A DNA stretch of 37,553 nt from Fimbriimonadaceae bacterium (GTDB taxonomy: Bacteria > Armatimonadota > Fimbriimonadia > Fimbriimonadales > Fimbriimonadaceae). Shown here one piece after another: positions 2,868-35,013 of this stretch (within the stretch, counting starts at the first letter, position 1; every line of letters starts with the position of its first letter). Where the stretch lies: assembly GCA_025455775.1 (NCBI GenBank), contig JALOLT010000013.1, positions 1-37,553 of the forward strand. Direction: 5' to 3'. The position numbers and the translations under genes are program-made. A model generated the notes under the pieces. It had not been told where the DNA came from. It ran no database searches and saw nothing but the letters and a program-made list of their open reading frames with translations.

Positions 2868-4817
2868 CTAGGCAGCGCGCGATGTGGGCCGATGATCCGG
2901 CTCACTTTCGTGAGTCGTCTTGAATTGGCTGGCCAAGGCACTCAACTTGTTAGCCATCTCACTGAGTTGTCGAACCGAGTCACTGACCCCCTGAGCCGAG
3001 GCGGTCAATTGCTCTGCCCCTGCCGCTGTCTCTTCACTGATAGCCGCCACGCCTTGGATCGCTCCAGAAACCTGAGAGGCACCAGAGGCCATTTCCGCAC
3101 TTTGCTGAAGGGTTTGTTCGGCCAAGGCTTGCACGTTGCCGATTTCCTTTCTCAGTTCCTCACTGCGCTGGGCAACACCGTGGGCTTCACGGGCGACTTG
3201 CTCCGAAGATTCGGCGATGAGACCCAATGAATCACCTGCTTCCGCACTCATCTTGCTGGCGTGCTGCACAAGAGGCCCAGTGGCAGTGATGGCATCGACC
3301 GTTTGCGAGACCTGCTTGCGAATGTTGTCGATCATCACGACGATCTGCTGAGTCGAACCCCTGGCCTGTTCAGCCAACTTTCGAACCTCTTCCGCCACCA
3401 CGGCAAAACCGCGCCCATGCTCGCCTGCTCTGGCTGCTTCAATGGCAGCATTCAAGGCAAGGAGGTTGGTTTGCTCCGCGATCTGCTCGATGGATTGAAC
3501 AATAGCCACGATTTCCCCACTGGCTTCGTCAAGCTGCCTCACTTGGTTCGTCGATTCCTCCACCTGCACTTCGATCTTGCTGTTGGCTTGCACGATGCTT
3601 TGAATCTTGAGCTTGCCTTCCTGGGCGACAGCAGTTGCCTGTTGGGCAGCGGCTGCCACATCTCGGGCGACTGAAGAGGCTTCTCCCAAATCCTCATTAG
3701 CCTTCGTCAAGGCTTCGCTCTGCTGTGAACTCGCTTCCTTCACCTCTTCGGTACCGGTCAGAAGTCGATCCATAACGGCTGTCGTCTCTTGCGCCGAATA
3801 AGCTAACTTCTCGCTCCCTTCCGCAATTTCGCCTGAGGCGTTCGAGGCCTGCTCGCTAGCACTGTGGAGACTCTCGCAGGAATCGCTGATCTGCTTGGCC
3901 CCTGCCTGCAGATCCTTGACAATGCCGAGGAGGTTTTGCTGAACCTGGGTGTATTTTTCGGAAGTGGCCCGGAGCAGGACGATGAGGCGATTCAAGTTGC
4001 CCCCGACTTCACCCAGATCATCGCCATAGAGCCGAGGAATCTCTTGTGTTTTCCAGCCGACTTGCTTCGTCAGGTCAAAGGAGGCCATCCCGTCCATCGC
4101 TTCCTGCAACATCGGAACACCGTGGGTTGACATCAGCTTGATACGGTCGCTGATCTCCTTCAAGACTCCAGTCAGGTAACGGACGATCACGATCGTGACA
4201 GTGAGACACAGAATAAGCACCACGCCAAAGACGATTGCCATGTTTCGCTGGGCAGCAATCGACTGGCTCACTGTAGATGAATACACCCTTGCTCCTAAAG
4301 CCAAACTGGTTTTTAGTCCCTGAGCAAGTGCTGGGTTGATCTCGTCCCTGGCAACCGGCAAAAGTTGGGTTTCAATGTGCTCCTTGCTTTCTTCGATCTT
4401 GCCGGACGTGACAAGAGCCATCCAATCAGCATCTCGCTTGCGATACTTGTGCCAGGCCTCATCGAGCTTCACAGCATTCTCCTGATCCTTCTTGTGTGCC
4501 ATTTCCAGGTAGTCGTCGATCAGCTTGTCGATTTCGAGATCCAGCTCCTTGATCTTCTCCAGGGACTTGGCCCGTTGCTCCGGCACGATGGTGGCGACAG
4601 CTCGATAGTGCTGAAGCCGAAACTCGTTTATCTTCGCAGTGATGTCTTTCAGGGTTTGGATTTCCGGCAAAACATCGTCATAGAAGGTTGTCATCGACTG
4701 CCGCGAGCTACCGAGCGCCAAGAAGCCGACAGCGGCTATCACGAAAGTCAGGGCGATGAGAACGCCGAACCCTAACAGGAGTTTCGATCGAGTTTTAAGG
4801 TTATAGAACCACGTCAT
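2868..4817 (-). CDS. Methyl-accepting chemotaxis protein (4HB sensor)
   Basis: This 649-aa transmembrane chemoreceptor has TM1 at about 13-36, a helical periplasmic domain resembling the four-helix-bundle MCP sensor (about 37-190), TM2 at about 192-217, a HAMP-like linker ([13 protein letters not shown]) and a long cytoplasmic coiled coil. The signalling tip at about 454-483 has the hallmark [20 protein letters not shown] and [13 protein letters not shown], which contacts CheA and CheW. The C terminus lacks an NWETF-type CheR tether. I place the start at the ATG at 4815-4817 because GGAG lies 5 nt upstream and the N terminus then matches the paralogue downstream of it (MxWFYNL). No che genes are in the window, so it must signal to a kinase encoded elsewhere. 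The ligand is unknown. Confidence 0.95.
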
Positions 4818-4883
4818 TTTTCTCCATTCCTTTGTGGCCGAAGCCAATTATTTGCAGACACAAATATTTCATCGGAAATCTGT

Positions 4884-5124: not shown

Positions 5125-7071
5125 TCATGCTGCCTCCTCCACTCCGGCTTCCTCAGGGCCCTTTCGCGTTTTGAATTGCCCGACGATTCTGTCGAGGCTT
5201 GAAGCCATCTCATTCAGCTCTTCGGCAGAGGCAGTCACAGCTTCAGCAGAGGCAGTCATTTCTTCTGCTCCGGCGGCGGAAGTTTGGCTGATGGCAGTCA
5301 CATGTTGAATGGCTGCCACCACTTGCTCTGCCTCCGATACCATGTGCAGCGAGCGTTCGTGGGTGTCGTCTGAGTAGGCTTTGCACGTTTCCATTCCCTC
5401 TAGCATTTGGGAACTTTGCTCAGCAACACCACTGACATCCGTAACCACGCAACGCGAAGACTCAGCAATCTTATCGAGGGATGCGCCAGCCTGCGAGCTC
5501 AGCTCACTCGCTCGTTGAACCAACGGGCCAGTCGCAGTAATGGCTTTAACAGTCTGGGAGACCTGATCCCGAATATTGTCAATCAGCTCCACAATCTGAC
5601 TGGCAGAGCCACTCGCCTGCTCGGCGAGCTTTCGAACTTCTTCAGCCACGACGGCGAAGCCTTTCCCATGTTCGCCAGCTCTGGCAGCTTCGATCGCTGC
5701 GTTTAAGGCAAGAAGATTGGTTTGCTTCGCAATCTGCTCAATGGTTTCGACAATTGTGACGATCTGACCACTCGCTTCATCAAGCTTCTGAACCTTGAGT
5801 GTCGATTCGCTCACCTGGACTTCGATCTTCGAATTCGCTTTCACGATCTCGTCCATGTTTCGCTTGCTTTCGATCGCCAATTCGGTCGCTTTCCCCGCGG
5901 AAGCAGCAACCACTCGCGAGATATCAGCTGCCCTTCTCAGACCAGAGTCGGTGCTCGTGAGGGCTGTACCCTGATAATCGCTCGCCTCGCGAACCTTGAG
6001 TGAACCATCGAGCAGAATTTCGGCAGACTTGCTCGCTTCTTCCGAACTGTAGGCAAGGGCCTCACTCCCTTTCGCCAATTCTTGCGAAACCCCTGTCAGT
6101 TGTTCCGTAGCAATCGTAAGGTTAGAAGCAGTGGCAGAAACAGTATGAGACCCCTGCTGAATTTCTTCCACGATATCGATTAACCGAAGTCGAACAACAC
6201 CATAGTTCTTCGCGATTGTACGGAGTAAGCCGATCAAGGTGTTAAACTGCTCGCAAACTTGCCCCAAATCATCTTTCCCTGGATCAGGAATTTCAACTGT
6301 CTTCCACCCAGTCTCATAGGTCAAGTCAAACTGAGCAAGACCAGCAATAGCTTGATTGAGTTTAGGTACGCCAAACTCACTCATCAACTTCATTCGATCG
6401 CCAAGGGCTTTGAGATTTTTCGAGATATAAAGGATGCAAAGAGTAGCGATCGCGCAAGAAATTAGAAAGCTCACGACGAAGACAAAAATCAGTCGTGACT
6501 GGGAACCATGCACCAGCACTACAGTATCGTGGGCGACTTGACTCGCAGCTGACTCGTCGAACTCTATGATTGCCTTGAGCGCAGGGTCAAACTCGTTCTT
6601 AGCGATCGGGCGCATTTCCCGCTCTGAAAACAGCCTGGCTTCGGCTGTCTTGCCTTCCCGCATCAGTTTGCTCCACCCCTGTCCTGCGGAACGGTATCTT
6701 GTCCAGGCCTGGACCAAGGCCTGACTCAGCTTCTCTTCCTCTGGACTGCCTGCCTGTTTGACATCATCTTCCAGCAACTTGTCGATTTCGAGTCCCAGAT
6801 CAACCTGTCTGTTCAAAGCTTGTTGCTTTTCATCCGGTGTTACGGCACTCATCGCATCGTAATGGGCCAATCTGTAAGCCTGAATCTTGTCGCTGGTGGC
6901 TAAGGTTTCTTGCATCTCCGGCAGTGCCGTCTTTTTAAGATAGTTCACTGTTCTTCCAGCTTCCTCGAGGGCGAAGTGCCCCATCCAGGTAATGAAAAGA
7001 CTCGACACTAATGCGACTCCGAACCCTACAAGCAGCTTGGCGCCTGTGCGAAGGTTATAAAACCATCTCAT
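5125..7071 (-). CDS. Methyl-accepting chemotaxis protein, paralogue of the next gene
   Basis: This 648-aa chemoreceptor has the same plan as the one at 2868-4817: MRWFYNL start, TM1 at about 13-36, helical periplasmic sensor, TM2, HAMP-like [11 protein letters not shown], and a signalling tip with [20 protein letters not shown] and [13 protein letters not shown]. The tip is nearly identical to its neighbour, while the periplasmic parts are clearly diverged, as expected when a duplicated receptor has taken a new ligand. The C terminus ends GVEEAA without a CheR pentapeptide. The start at 7069-7071 is chosen because GGCGGAGAAAC precedes the ATG. It is the promoter-proximal gene of the pair, with a roughly 190-nt leader from the promoter at 7269-7297. 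Confidence 0.95.
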
Positions 7072-7268
7072 GTTTCTCCGCCTTGTGGCTCGGCCACAGG
7101 CCAATACCAAAAATACTCGGCGAATTACCTGGCGGAACTAATAGCTAAATCTCACTATTCTTCAGAATTGCCTATTCTTTCGCAAAAAACGTCCTAAGCT
7201 CTGATTTCACAGAGCAAATTAATGTTAAGCACTGTTAATCATTGCGCGGACAACCTTTATCCTCACCC

Positions 7269-16464: not shown

Positions 16465-18072
16465 TTATTGCTTGCGAAGGCTCAGATCGCGGTTACTTGT
16501 GGTGGCCGAGTTCGCAAGCCACTGCACGATGAGCAGGAAGAGTACTGTGATCGGCAACGTTTGGAGCACTGCCAGAACTTGGGCACTGATGACCCCTTCT
16601 GAAAAGCTCCAAACAAAGGCAAAAAGGAGTCCTGTAATGATATAGTTTCTCCATATAGATGTACTAAAACATAGTGGAAACGCTATAAAGAAGCAGAAAC
16701 CAATCACGAAGCTTCCGAAAAACACTCCCAAGAATCCGAACGAGAGGAAAAGATCCACCATAAATCCAAGCGTGATACCAGTGACCGAATCGTTCCGGTT
16801 CACGAGCCCCTTTCCTCGTTGCGCCACCCAGTTACTTGATCCCAAGATAGGTTTATCAGGCACGATGAAGCTGGGTAAGACCATTCGGAACCCCCACCAG
16901 GTGGATTCCCATCCAGTATGACCCTCCCGCATCGCGCTGTATACGATCGTGTCAGCAGTCACGATGACCGAGTAGCGCGGGAGCAAACTGCCAGGAATGT
17001 CGTGATAAATCAGTCGGTTGCGCCAATATCCCGCCTTGTAATCGACTTTCTCGCTTTCCCGATAGTAATAGTCGGGATCGATCAACACATTCTGAAAAAT
17101 TTCCAGCAGCATTGGGACGCGCTCGCTAGGTGCAACGGAGCGGATCCCCCCGTCGGTTCGAGCGTAAAGGAGGAAGGGTGACCCAACCCGTTCGAAGAAG
17201 GCAACAAACGAAAGCAGGAGAACGATATGCCAAGCTTTAAACTTGTAACCATAGGCAACAGCCGTAAACAGGAGGACGATAATCGGCAGGAGAGTTGGCT
17301 GTCGGCCGCCATTCAAGATACCGAAGAAGACCGGAATGAGCAGGGCGATTGTGTTCCAGAATCCAAACAGCTTCTTTGAATTACTCTCGAGCAGGACAGC
17401 TGCCGTGAGTGCCGAAACAGAAATCTGAATCAAAAATGTCAACTGCTTGAGGGGTCCGAAGATACCCCCGGTGAGAATCATGCCTGTATCTGTGACTCCG
17501 CCAATTCCCACCGTAAGAGTTTGGACCACCCCGAGTGCCAAACAGACCAGGCCTACCACCCTAAGAGTTCTGGGCGAATTCGAAGTTTTGACAATTGGGC
17601 CGAAACGGTCGAGTCTGAAGGTTCGGATGACGTAAGCCGCCGCTGCTAGACCTCCCATTCCAAGGTTGTACATCAGCATCGTCGGGAGAGGAGCGAGCAG
17701 CTTTAACGGCTCGTCCATAGCCTGGCCAGCAACAATTTTTGCAATGGCGGCAACGAAAATGTGCTGAAGCGCGAGAACGACAATCGCCAAACTCAAGATG
17801 TTCGCCAAGCCACCCAAGAACCAGATGGTCATGCTGGTCAAGATCAGGAAACTTGACACCATAAGTGCCATTTCAAGGGAAGTTCCTGTTGCAACCTGGA
17901 ACATGAAGAGAACCGGGACTAGCAGGGAGATCGCGAAAACGTTGATGGCCTTCGGCTTGACAAGCTTCTGACCACCCTTCGGGATCTCGAGATCCTTTAC
18001 TTCGAGTTCTTTTTCCGGAGCGAGGGCAACGGCACTCATGGGGAGTTGGCAGAATCGCGAGATTCCTGCCAT
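16465..18072 (-). CDS. Polytopic membrane protein, O-antigen/exopolysaccharide polymerase-like
   Basis: The protein is about 535 aa with some 11-12 hydrophobic helices and a long extracytoplasmic loop near residues 310-440 containing RTDGGIRS, DYYYRESE and HTGWESTWWGFR. This layout is that of Wzy-type polymerases and O-antigen ligases, which join polysaccharide repeat units at the periplasmic face. Sequence motifs are too weak to be certain. The open frame runs 71 codons further upstream across the divergent gene's start, so I use the ATG at 18072; another ATG at 18039 is equally possible and neither has a good ribosome site. It shares an intergenic region with a glycosyltransferase, which supports a polysaccharide role. 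Confidence 0.65.
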   Translation of the reverse strand: MAGISRFCQLPMSAVALAPEKELEVKDLEIPKGGQKLVKPKAINVFAISLLVPVLFMFQVATGTSLEMALMVSSFLILTSMTIWFLGGLANILSLAIVVLALQHIFVAAIAKIVAGQAMDEPLKLLAPLPTMLMYNLGMGGLAAAAYVIRTFRLDRFGPIVKTSNSPRTLRVVGLVCLALGVVQTLTVGIGGVTDTGMILTGGIFGPLKQLTFLIQISVSALTAAVLLESNSKKLFGFWNTIALLIPVFFGILNGGRQPTLLPIIVLLFTAVAYGYKFKAWHIVLLLSFVAFFERVGSPFLLYARTDGGIRSVAPSERVPMLLEIFQNVLIDPDYYYRESEKVDYKAGYWRNRLIYHDIPGSLLPRYSVIVTADTIVYSAMREGHTGWESTWWGFRMVLPSFIVPDKPILGSSNWVAQRGKGLVNRNDSVTGITLGFMVDLFLSFGFLGVFFGSFVIGFCFFIAFPLCFSTSIWRNYIITGLLFAFVWSFSEGVISAQVLAVLQTLPITVLFLLIVQWLANSATTSNRDLSLRKQ

Positions 18073-18133
18073 CCTATTATTGCTGATTTTGGTGTTCGCG
18101 GTAGCCTTGGTGCTAGAAGAAACCGACAATTCT

Positions 18134-18147
18134 CTCTGGTACCAGAG
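18134..18147. promoter_or_regulatory. Perfect 14-bp palindrome between divergent genes
   Basis: CTCTGGTACCAGAG is fully symmetric. It sits 39 bp before the glycosyltransferase ATG and about 61 bp before the divergent polymerase-like gene. A second inverted repeat, GCTAGAA (18112-18118) and TTCTAGC (18150-18156), brackets it. This is a good place for one regulator to control both genes. Confidence 0.45.
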
Positions 18148-18186
18148 CGTTCTAGCCCAAATTCTCGAAATGGAGATATGATGTAA

Positions 18187-19218
18187 ATGATGCGAATCCT
18201 CTACCTTGGCGATAAGGGAGGCACAAGCCTCCATCGAGCCATTGCGCTGGAGGATCTCGGACACGACGTTCACCACATCGAACAACTTCCCTTCAGACTA
18301 GGCCGTTTGCAAAATCACTTTCACTACGAAACAGGCTACTTGCTTTATCAAAACCGGTACAAAACCTACGTCCTCAACCAGATAAAGGATCAGAAGTTTG
18401 ATGCAATTTGGGTGGATAGCGGGAAATCTGCAGGACAAAAGCTGCTCCGGGAGCTTCGCTCACATGGCCCGATCATCCTCTTTAACCACGACAACCCCTA
18501 CGTCTGGCGCGACCGAGGGTCCTGGCTGAGCCTTCGACGAGCGCTTCCGCAGTACGATGCCGTCGTTGTCGTTCGTTCCCCTGACATCGAACTTGCTCAG
18601 CGGCTCGGGGTCAAGCGCGTAATCCATGAGTTTCGAACCGCTGATGAAGTGTTTCATGCGCCACTCGAACTCTCCCCGAGGGACTGGGAGATTTTCGGGT
18701 CAGAGGTTGCCTTCGTCGGAACCTGGATGGAAGACCGTGGAGCGGTCGCTGCCAATCTCATTTCGTTGGGGGTTCCACTCACTATCTATGGAACCAGGTG
18801 GCAAAAGGCTAAGGAGTGGAAGCAACTGGAACCGTTTTGGCGATCAGTGGATACGTCCACCCCTGAAAGCTACCGAAAAGCAATTCAGTGTTCCAAATGT
18901 TCTCTTTGTCTCTTGAGCAAGGGGAATCGAGATCATCACACGACTCGTTCCGTTGAGATTCCCTATCTCGAGCAAGTTCTGGTTGCTCCTCGAACAAATG
19001 AGCACCTAGAAATGTATGAAGAAGGTAAAGAAGCGATCTTCTGGTCAAGTTTAGAGGAGTGTGCTGATCAAATCAAACAACTGCTCTCTGATCCGGAGCG
19101 CCGAGATGCTATCGCTGCGGCAGGCAAAGCAAGGGCCTTGAGAGACAAACACACAAATCGCGCAATGTTATCGCGGGTGCTGCACCAGGTGGTACCAGGT
19201 GCCCCGGAGCCGATCTAA
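18187..19218 (+). CDS. CgeB-like glycosyltransferase
   Basis: This 343-aa protein is a GT-B type glycosyltransferase of the family 1/CgeB kind. It starts MMRILYLGDKGGTSLHRAIALEDLGHDV, a Rossmann-like acceptor domain. Later come FVGTWMEDRG at the start of the second domain and HHTTRSVEIPYLEQVLVAPRTNEH, where the Arg-Ser-x-Glu-Ile-Pro segment is the nucleotide-sugar site typical of the group. No signal peptide or membrane helix is seen, so it should work at the cytoplasmic face. A GGAG sequence lies 11 nt upstream; ATG codons at 18187 and 18190 are both possible. It is divergent from a polymerase-like gene and its stop overlaps the lptD-like stop by 4 nt. The sugar and acceptor are unknown. Confidence 0.85.
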   Translation: MMRILYLGDKGGTSLHRAIALEDLGHDVHHIEQLPFRLGRLQNHFHYETGYLLYQNRYKTYVLNQIKDQKFDAIWVDSGKSAGQKLLRELRSHGPIILFNHDNPYVWRDRGSWLSLRRALPQYDAVVVVRSPDIELAQRLGVKRVIHEFRTADEVFHAPLELSPRDWEIFGSEVAFVGTWMEDRGAVAANLISLGVPLTIYGTRWQKAKEWKQLEPFWRSVDTSTPESYRKAIQCSKCSLCLLSKGNRDHHTTRSVEIPYLEQVLVAPRTNEHLEMYEEGKEAIFWSSLEECADQIKQLLSDPERRDAIAAAGKARALRDKHTNRAMLSRVLHQVVPGAPEPI

Positions 19219-21443
19219 AAACCGATTCCAGATCCGATTCGTTGACCCCTTTGGCCGATGCCAAAGTTGTTCCCAAACGGGAACGCCTTGATGCGGACGG
19301 ATAACGAGATTTGTCGACCAGAGCGGAACCCGACTCTGGTATCGCTAACTTCGAGCACCGCCTCTGTACAATGCAAGTCATAGATCAGCTGGTATTGCTG
19401 AGCTTCAATGTACTTCGTATAGCCATTGTAGGAAAGCAGAGCATCGATCCTGGTCTTTCCAGACCTTATGCCAGTCAGTTGAATGTTAAACCCACTCCAC
19501 ACAGAACGGAAGGCGTCGTACCTGGCCCCGAAGATACATCCCACCTCACCGACAAAGAAAGCAGCGTCTGCACGAAATGTATTCCATTTGCTATTAAAAG
19601 TATCATAAACTGCCGCTCCCGTGACTCTCGTCCTCCCATTCGGTTGGTAGTTCGAAGTAATGTTCACAAACTGCCAGGGAACCTGGCCCCGCGTTGACTG
19701 CAGGATGTCGTATCCCGTGGAAGCAGCAAGAGTCCAGGCCGAAGACGGATTCCAGGTGAGATCCAGGTTGAAGGCATCGTTTCTGCCGGTTCGGTCGATC
19801 GCAAAGGGCGTGAATCCAAACTGTCGCAGGTTTCGATAATTCAGGTTCGCAGCTATCTTTCCTTGAACCTGGTAGCTCAATCGACCGTCGTAATCTAACA
19901 CGTATTGTGCAGTGTCGTCACTATAAAGACCTTGACGCAACCGCCCGCCGTAGTTGAGTCTAAGTCCACCGAAGCCAGAAGTCTGGCGAGACGCGAAGTC
20001 AGCGAAGAGTCTCGTCAATCGGCGATCCCCTTCGCTGAGCTCTCCGACTTCAAGCCTTGCAGAAAGGGCATCGGGACTTCTCCCGAAGAGGCGGCGTGCA
20101 TCACTGGTCAGGCTCACCATCGGAGTCCGATCCGATGAACCTGAGAAGGCGATGTTGCCTCCGACAGGCACAGCCCGCTGGTATTGGAACTCCGCCGACA
20201 CAGGTTGCCAATCCTTTTGTCCAGAAAAGCGCACGTCCAGTCGCTGGCTATCGACGCTCACTCCGCCGAACGAACTCTGTAACCGATTGGCAGAGTCCGA
20301 ATAGTTTAGCTCTAAACTCGTGCGGAGCCCCTGGCCCCAGTTCGTTGAGTTACCAAGAGTAAAGTTCTGAGAAAGACTTGAAAAGTTACCTGTTTTGTTT
20401 TCAACCCTCACAAAACCAAACCGTGTCTGGCCTTGTGAGGTGGTGCGAACCCAAGACCCCCGCGAGTTCCACAGTGTCGATTCAGGCGCAGTGAGATAGT
20501 TGTTACGCTGAAATGAAGTCTCCAGGCTGAGGGAACCAGAGCCAAGAGCCTGGCGATGGGTAGCATTCAGGGTCTGAACAGCTTGAGGGCCGAAGATCGC
20601 GTATGCGCTCACCCCACCGACCGCCGTCCCAAAATAGCGCCAATCAAAACCAGTTCCCACCCCCAACTTAGACATAAGGTCGAGTCGCCCGTCAATGACG
20701 CCTCCTCTTGCCAGTGGCGAGGACCACCGAGTTTTGATGAAATAGCCTTCGTCGCGGCTTTGACCAACCTCTGGCAAAAAGCGACGGGAATCCTCTTTGA
20801 GCGGGATCGCCAGAGCAGGGATATGGACAATGGTTCTACCGAGTACCTGCAACCGAACCCCTCGCAAAAGCGCTCTGTCGCCAGGAATGACTTCGAGTGA
20901 CTTCGCCTTCAAGTTGAAGTGGGGGCTATCTTGGTCGCAGGTTGTGAGTTCTCCATCCCGTAAGGTCAAACTCGATTCCGAGCCTGAGCCACCACTGCTC
21001 CTGATATAGACAGGCCCAGTGAGGGGAGCCTGTAAACGTTCTGGGCCCAAAGCCGCCTTCCCGTTCCGAAATCGAAAGGTTCGATCGCGAAGGTTGATCT
21101 CGACTTCTTCACCCAGCAGCGTCTCTGTTTGTCCCGTCAGGCGGGCATTTCCGAACAGAGTAAAGACCTCCGTCGACTTATCGCCGACAATCCTCTCTGC
21201 CTCCAAACGGTAGCCGCGCGATTCCAGAATGACGCCACCACTCGCCTCGATTTCGTTGCCAGAAACTACGTACTCGCTGGCCTTGACGATTCTCAACTCG
21301 CTCGAATTTCTTTCCGATGGAGCCGGAAAGGCCAATTCCTGCCCCTGGCTTTGGCTTACTCCTTGCTCAACTAACGGGCCAACGTTCTGTGCCATCAATA
21401 TGCATGAAAGCACTACAAATAACGCAATCCAAGTAAACCTCAC
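19215..21443 (-). CDS. lptD: LptD-like outer-membrane LPS assembly protein
   Basis: The 742-aa product has a signal peptide (MRFTWIALFVVLSCILMAQ), an OstA/LptA-like beta-jellyroll region at about 45-140 (SEYVVSGNEIEASGGVILESRGYRLEAERI is split over several short repeats), then about 550 residues of alternating strands that fit a beta-barrel, ending in a terminal Phe. This is the LptD layout: periplasmic slide plus outer-membrane pore for LPS. The start is GTG in a GTGA overlap with the upstream Lpt permease gene, which strengthens the call. The family is divergent from proteobacterial LptD, and a disulphide pattern cannot be judged. It is the last gene of a six-gene minus-strand operon. Confidence 0.8.
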   Translation of the reverse strand: MRFTWIALFVVLSCILMAQNVGPLVEQGVSQSQGQELAFPAPSERNSSELRIVKASEYVVSGNEIEASGGVILESRGYRLEAERIVGDKSTEVFTLFGNARLTGQTETLLGEEVEINLRDRTFRFRNGKAALGPERLQAPLTGPVYIRSSGGSGSESSLTLRDGELTTCDQDSPHFNLKAKSLEVIPGDRALLRGVRLQVLGRTIVHIPALAIPLKEDSRRFLPEVGQSRDEGYFIKTRWSSPLARGGVIDGRLDLMSKLGVGTGFDWRYFGTAVGGVSAYAIFGPQAVQTLNATHRQALGSGSLSLETSFQRNNYLTAPESTLWNSRGSWVRTTSQGQTRFGFVRVENKTGNFSSLSQNFTLGNSTNWGQGLRTSLELNYSDSANRLQSSFGGVSVDSQRLDVRFSGQKDWQPVSAEFQYQRAVPVGGNIAFSGSSDRTPMVSLTSDARRLFGRSPDALSARLEVGELSEGDRRLTRLFADFASRQTSGFGGLRLNYGGRLRQGLYSDDTAQYVLDYDGRLSYQVQGKIAANLNYRNLRQFGFTPFAIDRTGRNDAFNLDLTWNPSSAWTLAASTGYDILQSTRGQVPWQFVNITSNYQPNGRTRVTGAAVYDTFNSKWNTFRADAAFFVGEVGCIFGARYDAFRSVWSGFNIQLTGIRSGKTRIDALLSYNGYTKYIEAQQYQLIYDLHCTEAVLEVSDTRVGFRSGRQISLSVRIKAFPFGNNFGIGQRGQRIGSGIGF

Positions 21444-22516
21444 TCGATCTTTCTCCCGACGAAGAGTGCCATGAGAAAATAGAGGCCACCTGGAATGGAA
21501 GCAGCGACAAGCGGAGGGGCCCAGGCGTTCCGACCAATGATCTGAAACCCTAAAACATGCACGTTGAAGTAGAGGGCCGCCAGGCCAAAGCCAAGCAAAA
21601 CGCCGACAAATGGGCCGAGCCTGGCGAACCGAACCGCCATCAGCGCGCTCGTGAGGGCAAATATAACGCAGGTAGCAGGAATCGCAAACTTCTCATAGAA
21701 CAAAAGCTCCAGCTCGCGAGTCGCGATCCCTGCCGATTGATTCCGTTCAATCTTCTCCCACACTTCGCGGGCAGTCTCTGTACTCGCAGAAGCAGGCATG
21801 AACAAGGACGGAATATCAATCTTTTGGTTTATCTCCAAGCTACGGCCTGCCTCAAATGAGACGACGTTTGGCCCCTGGAAAATTCGAAAAATGGCATTGT
21901 CAAACCGCCAAATACCGTCGCGGTAGCTCCCGGTCTCAGCCGTGTAAACCCAGAGCTCACCTGGCTTGGGTTGCTCCGCCAAAAAGATGTCGTTCAGAGT
22001 CAATCGGGAGTCGTCATCGCGGGAAACAGATCCAAATCGAGCGACGTAGGGTGGAATCCGGATCATGAGGTTGCTCTCGAATCGGGGATTCGCAGCTATC
22101 GCCAACACCTCCGCGCTTAACTTCTGGTGACCCCTTTCAGTGTTTGGAACCACCCACTCTGTCAGCCACCAGGTGATTCCAGCCCCAACAAGCCCCACAA
22201 CCACTGGCATGAACAAAATGCGCTTGATAGAAACACCGGCCGACCGAAGGGCCGTCACCTCGCTTTCCCGGACTAATCGCGAGACCCCCAGAGCCACAGC
22301 CAGCGAAACACCAGCAGGTAAAGTATAGGTAAACCAATATGGCATTCTATATAAAGCGAGCTGCAGAATGGAAAGGGTGGGAACCCGAGTTACCTCCAGT
22401 TGCTTGAAGAGAGCCATGAACTCGTTGCCCAAAAACAGCAACCCAATGACGACGACACCAATGAGTAAAGGAACGATCATCTCCCTCAGCATGTAGCGAT
22501 CCATCCGCTTGGTCAT
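21440..22516 (-). CDS. LptF/LptG family LPS export permease
   Basis: This 358-aa protein has the YjgP/YjgQ layout: three N-terminal helices beginning MDRYMLREMIVPLLIGVVVIGLLFLG, a periplasmic beta-jellyroll domain at about 130-260, and three C-terminal helices. The cytoplasmic EVTALRSAGVSIKRIL segment is the coupling helix that meets the LptB ATPase. Only one permease gene is present; proteobacteria use a LptF/LptG pair, so a partner may be elsewhere or the protein may dimerise. The ATG overlaps the upstream gene's stop (ATGA) and has GAGGTGA as ribosome site. With LptD directly downstream it links inner-membrane extraction of LPS to outer-membrane insertion. Confidence 0.9.
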   Translation of the reverse strand: MTKRMDRYMLREMIVPLLIGVVVIGLLFLGNEFMALFKQLEVTRVPTLSILQLALYRMPYWFTYTLPAGVSLAVALGVSRLVRESEVTALRSAGVSIKRILFMPVVVGLVGAGITWWLTEWVVPNTERGHQKLSAEVLAIAANPRFESNLMIRIPPYVARFGSVSRDDDSRLTLNDIFLAEQPKPGELWVYTAETGSYRDGIWRFDNAIFRIFQGPNVVSFEAGRSLEINQKIDIPSLFMPASASTETAREVWEKIERNQSAGIATRELELLFYEKFAIPATCVIFALTSALMAVRFARLGPFVGVLLGFGLAALYFNVHVLGFQIIGRNAWAPPLVAASIPGGLYFLMALFVGRKIE

Positions 22517-27321: not shown

Positions 27322-27693
27322 ATGAGTTTGATTTGGATCCTCTTTACCCTGGCTGGCTGTTCAAGGCCCAGCATCGTGGGTTCTTGGGAGTCCACACGTG
27401 CCCCGGGGCTTGAGGTGACATTTAGATCGGACGGAACCTATGGGGTGACCTTGCCAGATCAGCTCGGACCTGGGGCGGAGATCTCGGGGAACTATGAAGT
27501 CGATCGCAACCGCGTCAGACTCACCCAGCCGAAACTGGCAGTTGAGCTTCCCTTTGGAGTTCCTACCCCAGATCTTTCCCGATTCTTTCCCGATCAAATC
27601 GACCTCGATGTTGCCTTCAAAACCGATGACGAGGTAGTCATTGCCGGGAACATGATGCTCCAAGGAAACTATAAACGGAAGACAAGACAATGA
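27322..27693 (+). CDS. Lipoprotein with lipocalin-like beta domain
   Basis: This 123-aa protein starts at the ATG at 27322 with a very short signal, MSLIWILFTLAGC, whose LAGC is a lipobox. The mature part has GSWES, LEVTFRSDGTYGV, GNYEVDRNRVRLT and a final MLQGNYKRKT. This strand pattern is typical of small lipocalin-like domains that test for a 'weight of evidence' beta-sheet rather than a catalytic site. The frame is open further upstream but would overlap nth and hide the signal. Its TGA overlaps the guanylyltransferase ATG (ATGA at 27690-27693). The function is unknown; the neighbour suggests an envelope role. Confidence 0.75.
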   Translation: MSLIWILFTLAGCSRPSIVGSWESTRAPGLEVTFRSDGTYGVTLPDQLGPGAEISGNYEVDRNRVRLTQPKLAVELPFGVPTPDLSRFFPDQIDLDVAFKTDDEVVIAGNMMLQGNYKRKTRQ

Positions 27694-28739
27694 AAAGAAT
27701 TGCAATTATTATGGCGGGAGGTTCGGGCGAACGCTTCTGGCCTGTCTCGACCAAAGAGCGACCGAAGCAGTTTTTGAAACTGGCCTCGCCAGAAAAAACT
27801 TTGCTCGAAGAAGCGGTCTCAAGGGCTGCTGACGTCGTCGGCGAGTCTTCTGTCTTTATCGCGACAGGTTCACATCTCCAGGAAGCCACGAAGGATCTCC
27901 TCCCCTTCCTCCCTCCCCACCATATCTTTGCCGAACCCCACAAAAGGAATACCGCCGGTTGCCTGATCTGGGTAGCGGCAAACCTCATCGCAGCTCGCCC
28001 GGATGATTGGGCCGAAACGAGCCTCGCAATTCTGACCGCAGACCAGAGAATCGTTCCCGTCCAAGGGTTCCTCGAAAGCGTAACGGCAGCTCTTGAAACC
28101 GTTGAGCAGTACGGCGGGATCGCCACGATTGGGATCCGACCAACAAGACCGGAAACAGGATTTGGCTACATCGAAGTCGGTGAAGCAGTGGGAGCCGCTA
28201 GCCAGGTCACCAGGTTCCGCGAGAAGCCAGACATAGAAACGGCGAGACGATTCCTTGTGGCTGGCAACTTTTTATGGAATTCGGGGATGTTTTTCTGTAC
28301 AGTCGGAACTCTAATGACTGAGCTCACCAGGCTCCAGCCTGAGATGGCCCAGGTTGCCATGGAATGTGCGAAGAAGATCGCCGAAGGGAAATCGGCAGAC
28401 GCCGCCGACATCTTCTCATCCTGTCCCAACATTTCCATCGACTATGCCGTGATGGAACGGGCAGAGAAAGTCTTCGTGATCGAAGCCAACTTCGACTGGG
28501 ACGACCTCGGATCTTGGGACAGCCTCGAACGGAGCTACCCGAAGGATCCCCACGGCAATGTGAGCCAGGGAACCGCGCGGATGATCGATTGCAACGGCTC
28601 CATCGCCTTCAACGACACAGAAGACTTCAATCTTTCCCTGCTTGGGCTCGAGAACGTTGTGGTGGTGGTGAGCGGCAAACAAATCATGGTTTGCGAAAAG
28701 AGTCGGGCACAAGAAGTCAAGCGTTTTCTAAACTCCTGA
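27690..28739 (+). CDS. manC: Mannose-1-phosphate guanylyltransferase
   Basis: This 349-aa sugar nucleotidyltransferase begins IIMAGGSGERFWPVSTKERPKQFL, the GTP-binding signature and the ERPKQF lysine site of mannose-1-phosphate guanylyltransferases. It also has PHKRNTAGC, ETGFGYIE, FREKPD, GNFLWNSGMF and DWDDLGSW. It makes GDP-mannose, precursor of mannose, fucose or rhamnose residues in surface polysaccharides. The length fits a stand-alone enzyme without the phosphomannose isomerase domain. The substrate-loop motif reads TADQR, where many relatives have an ADH. It is coupled to the upstream lipoprotein by ATGA and overlaps the convergent phosphatase gene by 23 bp. Confidence 0.93.
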   Translation: MKRIAIIMAGGSGERFWPVSTKERPKQFLKLASPEKTLLEEAVSRAADVVGESSVFIATGSHLQEATKDLLPFLPPHHIFAEPHKRNTAGCLIWVAANLIAARPDDWAETSLAILTADQRIVPVQGFLESVTAALETVEQYGGIATIGIRPTRPETGFGYIEVGEAVGAASQVTRFREKPDIETARRFLVAGNFLWNSGMFFCTVGTLMTELTRLQPEMAQVAMECAKKIAEGKSADAADIFSSCPNISIDYAVMERAEKVFVIEANFDWDDLGSWDSLERSYPKDPHGNVSQGTARMIDCNGSIAFNDTEDFNLSLLGLENVVVVVSGKQIMVCEKSRAQEVKRFLNS

Positions 28740-29256
28740 TTGTCTCTTGAACCGCTTCCAGTAAGTCCCCCGATGAAAAATGTCGGCCCAGGATGCCAAA
28801 GGCCTCTGCCGCTTCAAGGTCTGTGAGTTTGTCACCCAATAGGAAGCTGCGGGACAAGTCAGTTGCGAATTCTGCCGCTGCCCGCGCCAACATCCCAGTG
28901 CCAGGCTTTCGAGCCGGACAGGAAGATTCTGGGCCATGGGGGCAGAAGTAAATCGCGTCTATTTCGACGTGCTGGAGGAGCCACAGACTCAGCTCCCGAA
29001 ACTGGGATTCGCGGTAATAGTCGCGGGCAATCCCAGACTGGTTGGTGACAACAATCACCCAGTACCCATTTTCGTAGAGCCACTCCACCGCTTCGATGGC
29101 GCGAGTCACCCACTGCCAGTCCCGTTGGTGGGCGACGTAAGCCCGGTCAATGTTGATAACCCCATCACGGTCGAGAAACGCGACTGGTTTTAAGACAGGT
29201 TTGTGCTCTTGGGGCGCATCACAGCCCTTTCTAATGCGAGACGCGAGGCCAACCAT
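28717..29256 (-). CDS. HAD phosphatase of GmhB/HisB-N type, incomplete zinc site
   Basis: This 179-aa protein has the HAD set FLDRDGVIN (Asp29, Asp31), VTNQSGIAR, RKP (Lys117) and LLGDKLTD. Length and order match D-glycero-D-manno-heptose-1,7-bisphosphate phosphatase, which helps make heptose for LPS core. GmhB normally binds zinc with CxH...CxC before RKP. Here the loop is CPHGPESSCPARKP, giving Cys105, His107 and Cys113 but Ala115 for the fourth ligand, and the loop is short. Zinc may be absent or held differently. The ATG is preceded by a tiny 8-codon frame ending TAAGATG. It is probably cotranscribed with the Wzz-like gene 45 nt upstream. Confidence 0.85.
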   Translation of the reverse strand: MVGLASRIRKGCDAPQEHKPVLKPVAFLDRDGVINIDRAYVAHQRDWQWVTRAIEAVEWLYENGYWVIVVTNQSGIARDYYRESQFRELSLWLLQHVEIDAIYFCPHGPESSCPARKPGTGMLARAAAEFATDLSRSFLLGDKLTDLEAAEAFGILGRHFSSGDLLEAVQETIRSLENA

Positions 29257-29301: not shown

Positions 29302-31413
29302 TTAGACGAGCCGGCTCGCTGCCGTCTTATCTCGATTGATAACCAACCCGAGAACTCTTCCCCCTGCGTGGCGGAGCATGTCGATGGATTCGGCCATTTG
29401 GATCTTGCTAGGCAGTTCTGGGTCGACTACATAGACGACTCCATCAACCATGTCTGCCAGCTGGTGTGCGTCGGCAGTACTGTAGGCGCTAGGGGCGTCA
29501 ATGATCACGATGTTGTGGGACTCTTCCAAGCTCGCAACCAGGTTCTTCATGAGTTCACTCGCCAAGGCTTCCGTCGGGTTGCCAATTTGGCCTCCCGCCG
29601 GGAGGATGCTGAGCTTAGGGACCTCAGTTTCAAGCAGGAAGCTGGTTGGGTCAAGTCGATCCTTGATGATTTGCACGAGACCCTGCGCATCCTTCTTGCC
29701 AAAGAGTGTGCTGACCTTTGGGTTACGAAGGTTAGCGTCGACCAGGACAACTTTTCTGCCTTCTTGAGCAAAAGCCACTGCCAAGTTTGCCGCAACCGTC
29801 GAGACGCCTTCTTTCGAGACACTGCTCGTGACCAAGACAGACTTGACTGGCTTTGATTGGTCAGCAAAGGCGAGGTTTGTTCGCAGCATACGATAAGCCT
29901 CGAATGTCAGAGCCTGGTTTGGATTGAAGATGACCGGTGGCTGGTTGGCGGGACGCTTCGGAATCCTGGCCAGAACGATCGTGTCGGCGATTGCCGTTGC
30001 GTTCCTGGTCGAGAGCACCTTGTCTTGACCGATATCTCGGCTAAGAGCTACGAAGACACCCACGAGAAGGCCAAGCAGCGTTGCCAAGACGAGGTTTAGT
30101 CCCCAACTCGGTCTAGTTTGACGAGCAAAGGCTTGGCGTGTGATGTTGGTCGTTGGTTGCTTCAAGGCGTTGTCCCGCAACTTGAGAGCGTCGGCCGTTC
30201 GGCGAAGCTCTTCGATGGTCGCCTCGTGACCCCGGACGATTGATTGCAGACTGGACAGTTGTCGCGTCAGTTCCGGATCGATCGGCTTGAGAGAATTCAC
30301 GACAGAAGCCGTTCCGGCTGCTGCCCTGAGTGATTCGTATCTGGCCCTTGCTCCCGCAAGAGCAGCTTCCGCTGCCGTGACCCTGGCCTCGTACGAATCG
30401 ATTTCAGGATTTCGAACTGTTTGTTCTTCGGTGACAACCTTCTCCAGCGCGTCAAGGTATTGCTTCTTTTCGGCAATCCTTGCTTCAATTTCGCGTACAG
30501 CTCTGTGTTCAGGCTGGTAGCGAATGAGCAGAGCTTCTCGTTCAGATTCAAGGACGGCGAGTTCCCTTTGTTCGAGAACAATTTCATTGCGGTTCGTTCT
30601 CACGATCGGGAGGCGCACAGTACGGGGCAAGGCGGCCGCATCACGGCGCAAGGAGTCGAGAGATCTTTCTGCCTCTCGCACCGAAGCTTCGGCAAACTTT
30701 ACTGCCTGCTGATCCTCTCTGGCTGCCCCAGCATTGATCTGCTCTTGATTGAGCTGTCGCTGAACTTCCGCCTGCGAATCGAGCATGCGGTTCGTGGCCT
30801 GGAAGGCAGCCACATCACCACGGGCCTTTTCCAAGGCTGCTCCTTCTTCTTCCAGTCGACGGCTCACGAACTGGGTTGCCTGGGATACCTGGGCGGCACT
30901 TTTGGTGATGACAAATTCGGAAAAGACTTCTGGCAGAACAGTTGCCATGTCGGAGGCGAGCCGCTCGGTGGGAGCAGTCACTTGCACCTGGACAACATTA
31001 GTATCCAAGAGCTGGCGAACCTCGATCCTGGGGCCCCGCTCCTCGCGAAGCTCACCGACAAGGTTCGGCACTCCGCTTCTCTCGAAAACCTTGATCAGAA
31101 CCTCTTGCGACTCGAGCAACTGGATCTGAGTTGGAACGTCGTACGAGCCCCCTGTGCGGGAAATGACTTCTTCCACCGAACCAGTGGTTCCGGGGTTGGT
31201 CATCGTTCGTCCTTCGACGAGAATCCTGGTGATAGCGGTGAATTGCGCAGGAATCAACGCCGTGACACCAGCCCCGATCACCAAAAAGATCAAGGCGATA
31301 ATGAGGATCAGCCACTTTTGCCGACCAAGAATCCCAACCAAATCCTTAAAGGTGAGATCCGAAACTGTTGTGCTTAAGACGTTTGCTCCGCCAGTTGATG
31401 ATTTTCTTACCAC
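29302..31413 (-). CDS. Wzz/BY-kinase fusion protein with degenerate Walker A
   Basis: The 703-aa protein combines a Wzz chain-length domain and a CpsD-type cytoplasmic domain. TM1 is at about 32-54, a long periplasmic coiled coil at about 150-415, and TM2 at about 437-458. The E-x2-R-x2-R motif (Glu505, Arg508, Arg511) of BY-kinases is intact. The P-loop reads SSVSKEGVST: Val537 stands where the Walker A lysine of PGEGKS should be. Walker A' is VLVDANLRNP, with Asn561 for the second Asp. Walker B NIVIIDAPS (Asp639) is present. No tyrosine cluster exists at the C terminus. It likely controls polysaccharide length or export, but tyrosine-kinase activity is doubtful. The start is GTG at 31411-31413. 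Confidence 0.9.
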   Translation of the reverse strand: MVRKSSTGGANVLSTTVSDLTFKDLVGILGRQKWLILIIALIFLVIGAGVTALIPAQFTAITRILVEGRTMTNPGTTGSVEEVISRTGGSYDVPTQIQLLESQEVLIKVFERSGVPNLVGELREERGPRIEVRQLLDTNVVQVQVTAPTERLASDMATVLPEVFSEFVITKSAAQVSQATQFVSRRLEEEGAALEKARGDVAAFQATNRMLDSQAEVQRQLNQEQINAGAAREDQQAVKFAEASVREAERSLDSLRRDAAALPRTVRLPIVRTNRNEIVLEQRELAVLESEREALLIRYQPEHRAVREIEARIAEKKQYLDALEKVVTEEQTVRNPEIDSYEARVTAAEAALAGARARYESLRAAAGTASVVNSLKPIDPELTRQLSSLQSIVRGHEATIEELRRTADALKLRDNALKQPTTNITRQAFARQTRPSWGLNLVLATLLGLLVGVFVALSRDIGQDKVLSTRNATAIADTIVLARIPKRPANQPPVIFNPNQALTFEAYRMLRTNLAFADQSKPVKSVLVTSSVSKEGVSTVAANLAVAFAQEGRKVVLVDANLRNPKVSTLFGKKDAQGLVQIIKDRLDPTSFLLETEVPKLSILPAGGQIGNPTEALASELMKNLVASLEESHNIVIIDAPSAYSTADAHQLADMVDGVVYVVDPELPSKIQMAESIDMLRHAGGRVLGLVINRDKTAASRLV

Positions 31414-33051: not shown

Positions 33052-35013
33052 ATGCTCGGCTTGATCGTGACCCTCCTTTTTACGACCCTGGTGACCGTCG
33101 CGGTTTGGCCGTGGCTGAAGACCTTCAAGAGCGATTGGGACCCTGCTGAGCAAGTCGGAATTGCCGGGCTTCTCGGGCTCTGCCTCGCAGGGCTCCTAAC
33201 CCTCTTCGTGGGGCTCCTCCCCGCCGGCCTGACCTGGGGACTCGCCGTCGTCATCCTCGTCCCGGCCCTGTCCGTCGCGTGGCATCTTGCTCGAAAACTT
33301 GAGACCTTCCCGAAGCTCTCTGTCACTCCACCCCAGGGCCTAGCGACCCTTTTCCCTCTCGTCATCGTCCTCTTTTCCTTTCTCCCCCTTGTTTCGGTCC
33401 TCGCGCCCAGCGACTCCACCGACTGGGACAGCCTTGCCTACCACTTAGCTGTGCCGAAACTCTGGTTACAAGCTGGCCAGATTGAATATATACAGGGCAT
33501 TCACCATTCTAACTTCCCCTTTACTATCGACAATCTCTTCATTTGGGGCCAATTGTGGGGGGGACAGGCAGGAGCCAAAAGTTTCTCGCTCGCCTTCCTG
33601 ATCCTCGGGTGTCTGGCAGTCTTTGGCTTTGTCAGGCGGCACTCGAGCGACATCCCTGCCTGGTGGGCTACCTTGAGCTTTGTCTCGATTCCGGTCGTTT
33701 TGTGGGAATCTGGAACTGCCTACATCGACGTCGGCCACGGACTCACGACGGCTTTTGCCTTTGCCTATGGCGCAGAGGCGGCAGCCAAAATCTTGCGCAA
33801 AGAATCTCCCGAGAAGCTCGCGTGGCTAGCGGGACTTCTGATTGGCTGCGCTCTCGGGAGCAAGTTCACGGGACTTCAAAGTTTGCTTGCCTTCTCTGTC
33901 ACAGCAACCATCGCCCTCATCTGGGGGAAGCAACCAGCCCAAGGGGCGAAGGCAGTCGCAACCATCGTCGCAATAGGACTTCTCGTATCGGCCCCCTGGT
34001 TTATCCGCACTACGATTAATACAGAAAATCCCGTTTATCCTTTCTTTTACACCATTCTGGGCGGGAAGGACTGGGATGAATGGAGAGCTGAACTCTATCG
34101 CGACGAGCAGCAATCATTTGGTGTCGGAAGGACAGAATCAGGACGCGACCCCACCCAGATTGGACATGCAGTCCTCGGGCTGGCCTACCAACCAGGTCGC
34201 TACGTTAACCCAGGTCAGACCCAGGGGATGGGGTTCCCCACGGGGGCTATTGGCTTCGCCTCGGTCCTCACTCTCTTTTTAGTCGCCCTGTATGGCAATC
34301 GCCGAGCAGAAGAAACGATCCTCCTGACCAGCGTAGGGATACTCCTCCTTCTGTGGTTTTTCCTGAGTCAACAAAGTCGATACCTGACAATCGTCGCAAT
34401 TCCTTCCTGCCTTTTGCTCGGGCTCACTTTTGCCAGAATCCCATGGGCCAAGCTCCTGGCTGGCGCGGTCAGTCTCCAGGCAACCTATACTGGGTGGCTC
34501 CTGGTGAATACAGAAACGATCGAAAAACTTCCTGTCGTCCTCGGCCAAGTCTCCCCAGAGGATTTCCAAAAGAGGCGCATTTCATTTTTTGAACCAGCCA
34601 CTGCGATTAATCAAGATCAGACAGTGAAAAAGGTTGCCCTTTATGATGAGGTGTTTGGCTACCTGCTGGACAAACCTTACTTCTGGGCCAACCCTGGTCA
34701 CAGCAAGAAAATTCCCTACGAAACGTTGGAAGAGGGGAGTGCCTACGCCGAAAGCATGTCCAACCTCGGCTTCAGCCACATTTACCTCAACCTCCAGTTC
34801 ATGCCCAGCGAGGCGCGCGAAAGGTGGCTCCAGGCCGCCGGGCTCACTCCCGGTGAACCCTATTCCGAAGCAGAGAGAAGAGAAATGATGAAGGACTTGA
34901 ACCTGAGGTGGCGCCTTCTATTGGCAGAGGCAAACCGCCAGGGCCACTTCTCGCTTCACCAGCAGTTCCAGCGCAGTCTCCTCTTTAGAATCAGCGTGAC
35001 TCGTCCGGAGTGA
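33052..35013 (+). CDS. Polytopic GT-C-like glycosyltransferase
   Basis: This 653-aa membrane protein has about 11-13 hydrophobic helices. The first extracytoplasmic loop carries STDWDSLAYHLAVPKLWLQAG, whose acidic residues and YHL...PK arrangement resemble lipid-linked-sugar-dependent GT-C enzymes (ArnT/PMT-like). The C-terminal 150 residues are soluble. Such enzymes move a sugar from a polyprenyl phosphate carrier to lipid, protein or glycan on the outer face of the inner membrane. The donor and acceptor are unknown, and some relatives carry only DUF names. It lies 71 bp downstream of the SOD hairpin and overlaps the convergent PAS gene by 23 bp. Confidence 0.75.
   Translation: MLGLIVTLLFTTLVTVAVWPWLKTFKSDWDPAEQVGIAGLLGLCLAGLLTLFVGLLPAGLTWGLAVVILVPALSVAWHLARKLETFPKLSVTPPQGLATLFPLVIVLFSFLPLVSVLAPSDSTDWDSLAYHLAVPKLWLQAGQIEYIQGIHHSNFPFTIDNLFIWGQLWGGQAGAKSFSLAFLILGCLAVFGFVRRHSSDIPAWWATLSFVSIPVVLWESGTAYIDVGHGLTTAFAFAYGAEAAAKILRKESPEKLAWLAGLLIGCALGSKFTGLQSLLAFSVTATIALIWGKQPAQGAKAVATIVAIGLLVSAPWFIRTTINTENPVYPFFYTILGGKDWDEWRAELYRDEQQSFGVGRTESGRDPTQIGHAVLGLAYQPGRYVNPGQTQGMGFPTGAIGFASVLTLFLVALYGNRRAEETILLTSVGILLLLWFFLSQQSRYLTIVAIPSCLLLGLTFARIPWAKLLAGAVSLQATYTGWLLVNTETIEKLPVVLGQVSPEDFQKRRISFFEPATAINQDQTVKKVALYDEVFGYLLDKPYFWANPGHSKKIPYETLEEGSAYAESMSNLGFSHIYLNLQFMPSEARERWLQAAGLTPGEPYSEAERREMMKDLNLRWRLLLAEANRQGHFSLHQQFQRSLLFRISVTRPE

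Follow-up and report, generated by a model that had tools for sequence, protein, structure and literature searches.

What does a Wzz/BY-kinase fusion do when its P-loop lacks the lysine of Walker A? The question is raised by a gene in the window analyzed here, which is the whole contig C5 (37,553 bases) of a draft genome of 2.99 Mb in 170 contigs, 98.45% complete. The closest named relatives of this genome are MAGs of Armatimonadota / Fimbriimonadaceae, and its genus contains one genome only, the window's own. The gene and its parts are the following.

29302..31413, minus strand: PCP-2a-like Wzz/BY-kinase fusion, 703 aa, GTG start (Pfam, NCBIfam, AlphaFold2 model, fold matches to Wzc and CapAB)
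31081..31356, minus strand: Wzz domain, residues 20-111 (Pfam)
31255..31317, minus strand: TM helix 1, residues ~33-53 (helix of the AlphaFold2 model, hydropathy)
30169..30966, minus strand: long periplasmic helices, residues 150-415 (AlphaFold2 model; full-length match to Wzc K540M, 7nhr)
30025..30105, minus strand: TM helix 2, residues ~437-463 (AlphaFold2 model, hydropathy)
29320..29916, minus strand: BY-kinase-like domain, residues 500-698 (NCBIfam, phmmer, Z 35 to CapAB)
29881..29901, minus strand: oligomerisation motif E505-x2-R508-x2-R511, kept (sequence)
29800..29829, minus strand: Walker A, residues 529-538, with Val537 for Lys (codon GTC at 29803-29805)
29725..29751, minus strand: Walker A', residues 555-563, D559-A-N561 (Asn561 codon AAC at 29731-29733)
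29497..29511, minus strand: Walker B, residues 635-639, Asp639 kept (sequence)
29302..29325, minus strand: C-terminus without a tyrosine tail, residues 697-703 and stop (sequence)

The Wzz domain matches its Pfam model with 53.4 bits, and eps_fam, the polysaccharide tyrosine-autokinase model of NCBIfam, matches residues 505-698 with 141 bits, the cut-off being 108. The protein has the architecture of PCP-2a: Wzz lies between two predicted TM helices, the long periplasmic helices are equivalent to the helical bundles of Wzc, and a BY-kinase fold is fused C-terminally. It is best explained as a PCP-2a-type polysaccharide co-polymerase, co-polymerase activity being predicted from the sequence, and its probable role is in the building of surface sugar chains.

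Three features of active BY-kinases are absent from the protein, namely the lysine of Walker A GK[ST], the DxD of Walker A' and the C-terminal tyrosine tail (the last residue is 703, and there is no Tyr beyond residue 695), and one, the Walker B Asp639, is present. The first-pass annotation had reported Val537 in place of the Walker A lysine, and this is confirmed both by the codon (GTC in the context GGC-GTC-TCG, 29803-29805 in plus-strand numbering) and by phmmer, which aligns Val537 with K55 of CapB (Met in the 2VED K55M chain) and Asn561 with the second Asp of CapB DGD. The E-x2-R-x2-R motif (E505/R508/R511) and Asp639 are kept, as it had also stated.

Homologues were searched for in 85 Fimbriimonadaceae genomes. 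Lys is kept in 27 of the 30 sequences first aligned. The nearest homologue of the window protein (G014, 43%) has Ala (GCG) in the lysine position and the second nearest (G040, 41%) has Ser (TCC); both genomes belong to one genus, other than that of the window. In a maximum-likelihood tree from which the motif columns had been removed, the lysine-less proteins, three in number, form a clade (support 100/100) inside a group of 24 rows, the other 21 of which all carry Lys. Since both nearest relatives, coming from another genus, also lack the lysine, its absence is a trait of the clade and not an error.

The other two features, Asn561 and the absent tail, have a wider distribution. Asn561 is found in 13 of 13 close homologues and was rejected as a mark of degeneration for this reason; within the family clade of 39 rows it is shared by 35, while L027 has His and L028, L038 and L042 have Asp. 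A Tyr-rich tail is seen in none of the 39 rows, which have at most 2 Tyr and at most 20 residues past position 695, and the lysine is kept in 30 of them. As Asn561 and the tail loss are clade-wide, only Val537 separates the window protein, with its two nearest relatives, from the lysine-bearing kin.

These distributions modify several points of the first-pass annotation. Asn561 and the absent tyrosine cluster, which it had listed among the signs of a dead active site, do exist, but they are not specific lesions of this protein. On the question whether Val537 is conserved in relatives, Val itself is not, and the absence of Lys is. Intact GKS in neighbouring homologues, regarded there as pointing to a sequencing error or a recent mutation, is seen in neither of the two nearest relatives. 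The pseudokinase co-polymerase that it proposed is still the best reading, although two of its three "dead" features were inherited from the ancestor of a larger clade that mostly keeps GK[ST].

The family clade is mostly Lys-bearing, yet tail-less and mostly DxN; therefore the loss of the tail, and in the simplest account that of the second Asp, preceded the loss of the lysine. We infer from these sequences that in the family clade the tail and the second Asp probably went first, and the lysine later and repeatedly, the tail, the second Asp and the phosphatase having apparently been gone in an ancestor that still bore GK[ST]. Parsimony gives 5 Lys/non-Lys changes in the tree of 42 rows (the 39 rows and 3 outgroup rows): the lysine seems to have been lost a single time on the way to the three-member clade, and independently in lineages that now have Ser (L054, L040/L041) or Arg (L043, L038/L042).

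Two other variants occur among the relatives. L033 and L034 have approximately 30 additional residues between ExxRxxR and Walker A. In a second group of PCP/BY-kinase fusions of the family (L047-L053, L055, L283-L292, L303-L309) the P-loop has deteriorated severely (Cys, Ala, Thr, Arg, Ser) and some rows are without the Walker B Asp, although proteins of full length persist in many genera.

The comparison within the phylum comprises 178 PCP/BY-kinase fusions (the best match per locus, duplicate L035 dropped), which were picked by similarity rank and are not a random sample. The P-loop residue is Lys in 113 of them, Arg in 29, Ser in 11, Gly in 10 and Ala in 6, and more rarely Cys (4), Thr (3), Val (1) or Asn (1), the reading of the lysine column being approximate for the most divergent rows. 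The canonical combination of Lys, DxD and at least 3 tail Tyr is found in 76/178 fusions, and Lys with DxN and 0-2 Tyr in 28/178. The FastTree tree of the phylum requires at least 8 Lys/non-Lys changes. At least 3 Tyr follow position 695 in 16 of 29 Arg rows and in 15 of 36 other non-Lys rows, and because so many non-Lys rows elsewhere in the phylum keep Tyr tails, the order of losses is claimed for the family clade only. Across the phylum the association of lysine loss with tail loss is not significant, with too few independent pairs.

Other families of the phylum (L065, L073-L075, L237, L246, L250, L259-L260, L264, L266, L276, L281, L293-L301) have Arg where the P-loop would carry its lysine (GR[ST]); they retain DxD and have a few Tyr in the tail. 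Another set (L058, L064, L198, L214 and others) has GQG[GA]TTT. Outside the phylum, Lys is present in 66 of 66 loci, in a biased sample whose P-loop search pattern admits only K, V or A. No viral copy was confirmed by a match in IMG/VR.

The kinase-like domain of the lysine-less clade appears to remain under constraint, like that of the Lys-bearing kin. In the three pairs within the clade, identity is 53.0, 49.0 and 70.2% in the BY-kinase part and 37.7, 37.2 and 55.1% in the Wzz part. The excess is 15.3, 11.8 and 15.1 points, compared with 15.5 +/- 5.6 in Lys-bearing pairs (163 pairs with less than 55% PCP identity, from 19 of the 27 Lys-bearing aligned rows).

The AlphaFold2 model (15 sequences) has a mean pLDDT of 81.8, and approximately 90 in the kinase-like domain. 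Its top Foldseek matches are Wzc chains, and VIA-align superposes it on CapA1B1 (4jlv; Z 35.3, 1.4 A, 227 residues), CapAB K55M (2ved; Z 35.1, 1.9 A, 240 residues) and the octameric Wzc kinase domain (Z 32.6, 1.9 A, 238 residues). Full-length Wzc K540M (7nhr) is matched over 447 residues with Z 32.3 and 14.4 A, and at this deviation the orientation of the domains differs. The fold that the model shares with CapAB and Wzc would by itself prove no function. MinD/ParA ATPases have a deviant Walker A with a signature lysine, KGGxGK[ST]. Membership in this group was rejected by sequence, as the domain is fused to a PCP and lacks the signature lysine, and by the lower score to MinD (Z 17.7, 2.3 A, 177 residues) versus 35 to CapAB.

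Two families of tyrosine phosphatases were also considered. Among the 70 family genomes that are at least 90% complete, only three (G061, G127, G130) have CpsB_CapC, which we take to be a tyrosine-phosphatase family of such systems, and it is in these three that Tyr-tailed canonical fusions were found (L044; L045 and L046; L240). The fusions examined from the remaining family genomes, in some of which, e.g. G038, the first copy was read, have no Tyr tail; several family genomes gave kinase-free PCPs only, or none. In G061 the phosphatase ORF lies at most 30 bases from the end of the kinase ORF, in convergent orientation (L323). Since all three genomes belong to one genus, the co-occurrence of kinase and phosphatase may be one event. 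LMWPc is presumably the family of Wzb, and would also include arsenate reductases. No LMWPc candidate is found in the window's genome. Among the 22 genomes of the 24-row group, four have no match and one has a strong match (E <= 1e-30), this one being G014 of the lysine-less clade; strong matches are found in 28 of the 48 other family genomes. In the accessible part of PMC12004946, CapC is named as the phosphatase of CapB.

The neighbours of the fusion that were compared between genomes are:

28717..29256, minus strand: GmhB-like HAD-IIIA phosphatase, encoded directly downstream (the HAD-IIIA model passes its cut-off, the GmhB models do not)
27690..28739, plus strand: mannose-1-phosphate guanylyltransferase-like protein (profile match)
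16465..18285, minus strand: polytopic membrane protein, candidate Wzy-type polymerase (~13 hydrophobic segments)

Homologues of the GmhB-like gene adjoin the PCP gene in L078 and L080. Of eight 19-kb neighbourhoods, five (L076, L077, L079, L081, L083) contain a guanylyltransferase-like homologue and six, across genera, a homologue of the polytopic protein. These last two genes are found both in lysine-less (L076, L077) and in Lys-bearing members; the locus therefore looks orthologous, its neighbours unchanged when the lysine went. The polytopic protein, 11 kb from the PCP gene, is a candidate Wzy-type polymerase by its placement; it has no match in Pfam or NCBIfam, and its AlphaFold2 model (mean pLDDT 57.6) is too poor for a fold test, giving no more than weak similarities in Foldseek and VIA (the highest Z, 6.3, is to one chain of the FtsWIQLB complex). 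Elsewhere the genome encodes a second, kinase-free Wzz protein (contig C44), three Poly_export proteins and two flippase-like Polysacc_synt_3 matches.

Several other ORFs of the window deserve mention. At 19215-22516 an LptD-like gene (weak LptD_N match) and LptF/LptG genes lie side by side, which are LPS-transport parts in an Armatimonadota genome. Two adjacent chemoreceptor-like ORFs (2868-4847 and 5125-7110) of similar sequence and near-equal length likely result from a tandem duplication. A polytopic ORF of 653 aa (33052-35013) matches no Pfam family at a useful E-value.

How Wzc rings are regulated is described in the available parts of three papers (PMC8285477, PMC11986026, PMC12881504): each active site holds the Tyr tail of a neighbouring subunit, the octamer falls apart on phosphorylation, and it is rebuilt through the action of the phosphatase. 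The window protein is probably a phosphorylation-independent PCP-2a whose BY-pseudokinase domain serves as a scaffold. This reading is supported by the missing tail and P-loop lysine, the DxN, and a genome with one BY-kinase over the cut-off in which neither phosphatase family was found, and further by the conservation and fold of the domain, the export genes and the precedents EcpK and HfsB. The domain would be incapable of the cycle of tyrosine phosphorylation by which Wzc rings are put together and taken apart; it is probably kept as a folded scaffold that, via ExxRxxR, helps the Wzz part to form a ring, which would work with the Wzy-type polymerase and the outer-membrane export proteins. 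Chain length would then be set as in kinase-free Wzz proteins, and the protein would be a co-polymerase without any use of tyrosine phosphate, a natural equivalent of K540M that has neither the tail nor, in its genome, a match to either phosphatase family. Ring formation without the tail, and with it the lock in one state suggested by the first-pass annotation, is uncertain, because the tail supplies approximately half of the CapAB ring interface (PMC3795738, in the part available). Three further observations speak against the scaffold: G014, of the same clade, keeps a strong LMWPc match, the CpsB_CapC co-occurrence rests on three genomes of one genus, and elsewhere in the phylum lysine loss is seen alongside Tyr-bearing tails.

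The alternative that survives best, rather unlikely in our view, is a nucleotide switch without the lysine, where the pocket would bind ATP/ADP and the ring state would follow the nucleotide, as in MinD, with no transfer to tyrosine. The pocket residues E535, G536, S538, R563, D639 and D648 and the full ExxRxxR are retained in all three clade members, and the Lys-bearing tail-less sisters (28 rows) keep a complete P-loop. However, the P-loop lysine is a general phosphate ligand, and the pocket seems to be drifting: in L007 the first Asp of Walker A', Asp559, is also replaced, by Glu, and where 27 of the 28 tail-less rows with Lys have His568, the lysine-less clade has Ser, Asp and Asp. The clade-specific positions within 480-702 (503, 512, 537, 550, 568, 581, 608, 632, 646, 650, 658) include no compensating Lys or Arg near the pocket. 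Nucleotide binding may still survive in the window protein, because the K540M mutant of Wzc (PMC8285477) and the K55M mutant of CapB (PMC3795738), according to the sections at hand, form octamers (described as stable for Wzc) and still bind ADP-Mg.

It is very improbable that the protein joins an active BY-kinase in mixed rings or, as a residual kinase, phosphorylates other substrates. A precedent exists in CapB1 of S. aureus: as far as the excerpted text of PMC3795738 goes, it does not autophosphorylate even though its active-site residues are conserved, and action on other substrates, or a role as pseudokinase partner, was proposed for it. Yet the window protein has no tail available for phosphorylation, and in its 98% complete genome it is the single BY-kinase over the family cut-off, the remaining P-loop matches being MinD/ParA/Mrp-like. 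Decay of a recently broken or mis-sequenced kinase, suggested by one unusual residue in an otherwise good P-loop, can practically be dismissed, as GTC has no base in common with AAA or AAG at any of its positions, three different small residues (codons GCG and TCC in the relatives) occur in three genomes of two genera, and domain conservation is as in the Lys-bearing kin, with the frame open in all three members.

The scaffold reading may be one end of a longer process, which we propose tentatively and consider possible though doubtful: a stepwise conversion, where the ancestor gave up the tail, the second Asp and the phosphatase, keeping an ATP-competent P-loop, and descendants lost ATP use several times, down to a pure scaffold in the window clade. 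If this is true, ring assembly was controlled first by phosphate, then by nucleotide, and then by the polymer machinery alone, and a phosphorylation-free, ATP-driven PCP-2a persists in most relatives. In the standing model, Wzc-type co-polymerases must cycle through phosphorylation; this lineage keeps the fold without the tail and the phosphatase. Its natural lysine-plus and lysine-minus sisters form a series for studying roles of the kinase domain beyond phosphorylation, as ring scaffold, nucleotide switch, or both.

Among known systems, the window protein resembles E. coli Wzc, especially K540M, in full-length architecture and fold, in Val537 at the P-loop lysine, and in the kept ExxRxxR and Walker B, and differs from Wzc in having no Tyr tail and a DxN in Walker A'. 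The K540M form is described as octamer-stabilising (PMC10294653) and was used for isolating the Wza-Wzc complex (PMC12881504), in the parts of these papers available. Kinase and phosphatase activities are both reported in the accessible text of PMC8285477 as essential for polymer production in E. coli, whereas the window lineage, judging by its gene content, appears to live without either. CapA1B1/CapA1B2 of Staphylococcus aureus are the best structural match of the window domain (4jlv, 2ved); unlike it, CapB1 is a protein on its own in which the active-site residues and the Tyr cluster are retained (PMC3795738, same excerpt).

The literature searches found no paper on Armatimonadota exopolysaccharide with a tyrosine kinase, and, in the BY-kinase and pseudokinase literature, no description of a DxN tail-less family with a retained P-loop, of later lysine losses inside such a family, or of the matching phosphatase absence. 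The work on EcpK established that PCP-2 proteins can have BY pseudokinases, HfsB being the second case, and a scaffold role was proposed for both (PMC12004946, as far as its available text goes). The window domain is similar to EcpK/EpsV of Myxococcus xanthus and HfsB/HfsA of Caulobacter in being a predicted non-catalytic, tail-less BY-kinase fold tied to a PCP-2. Still, EcpK and HfsB are stand-alone proteins, EcpK without all Walker motifs, and the window domain is fused, with most motif residues remaining. In this respect it is closer to the fused PCP-2/BY-pseudokinases SMc01795, BCETI_6000729, Mlr8439 and VV1_2305, which are listed in the same source after Cuthbertson et al. and are known here by description only; as in these, PCP and pseudokinase form one polypeptide. 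Hence a fused BY-pseudokinase PCP-2 is, as a kind, already known from that source, and what is new here is a loss that is graded within a single lineage.
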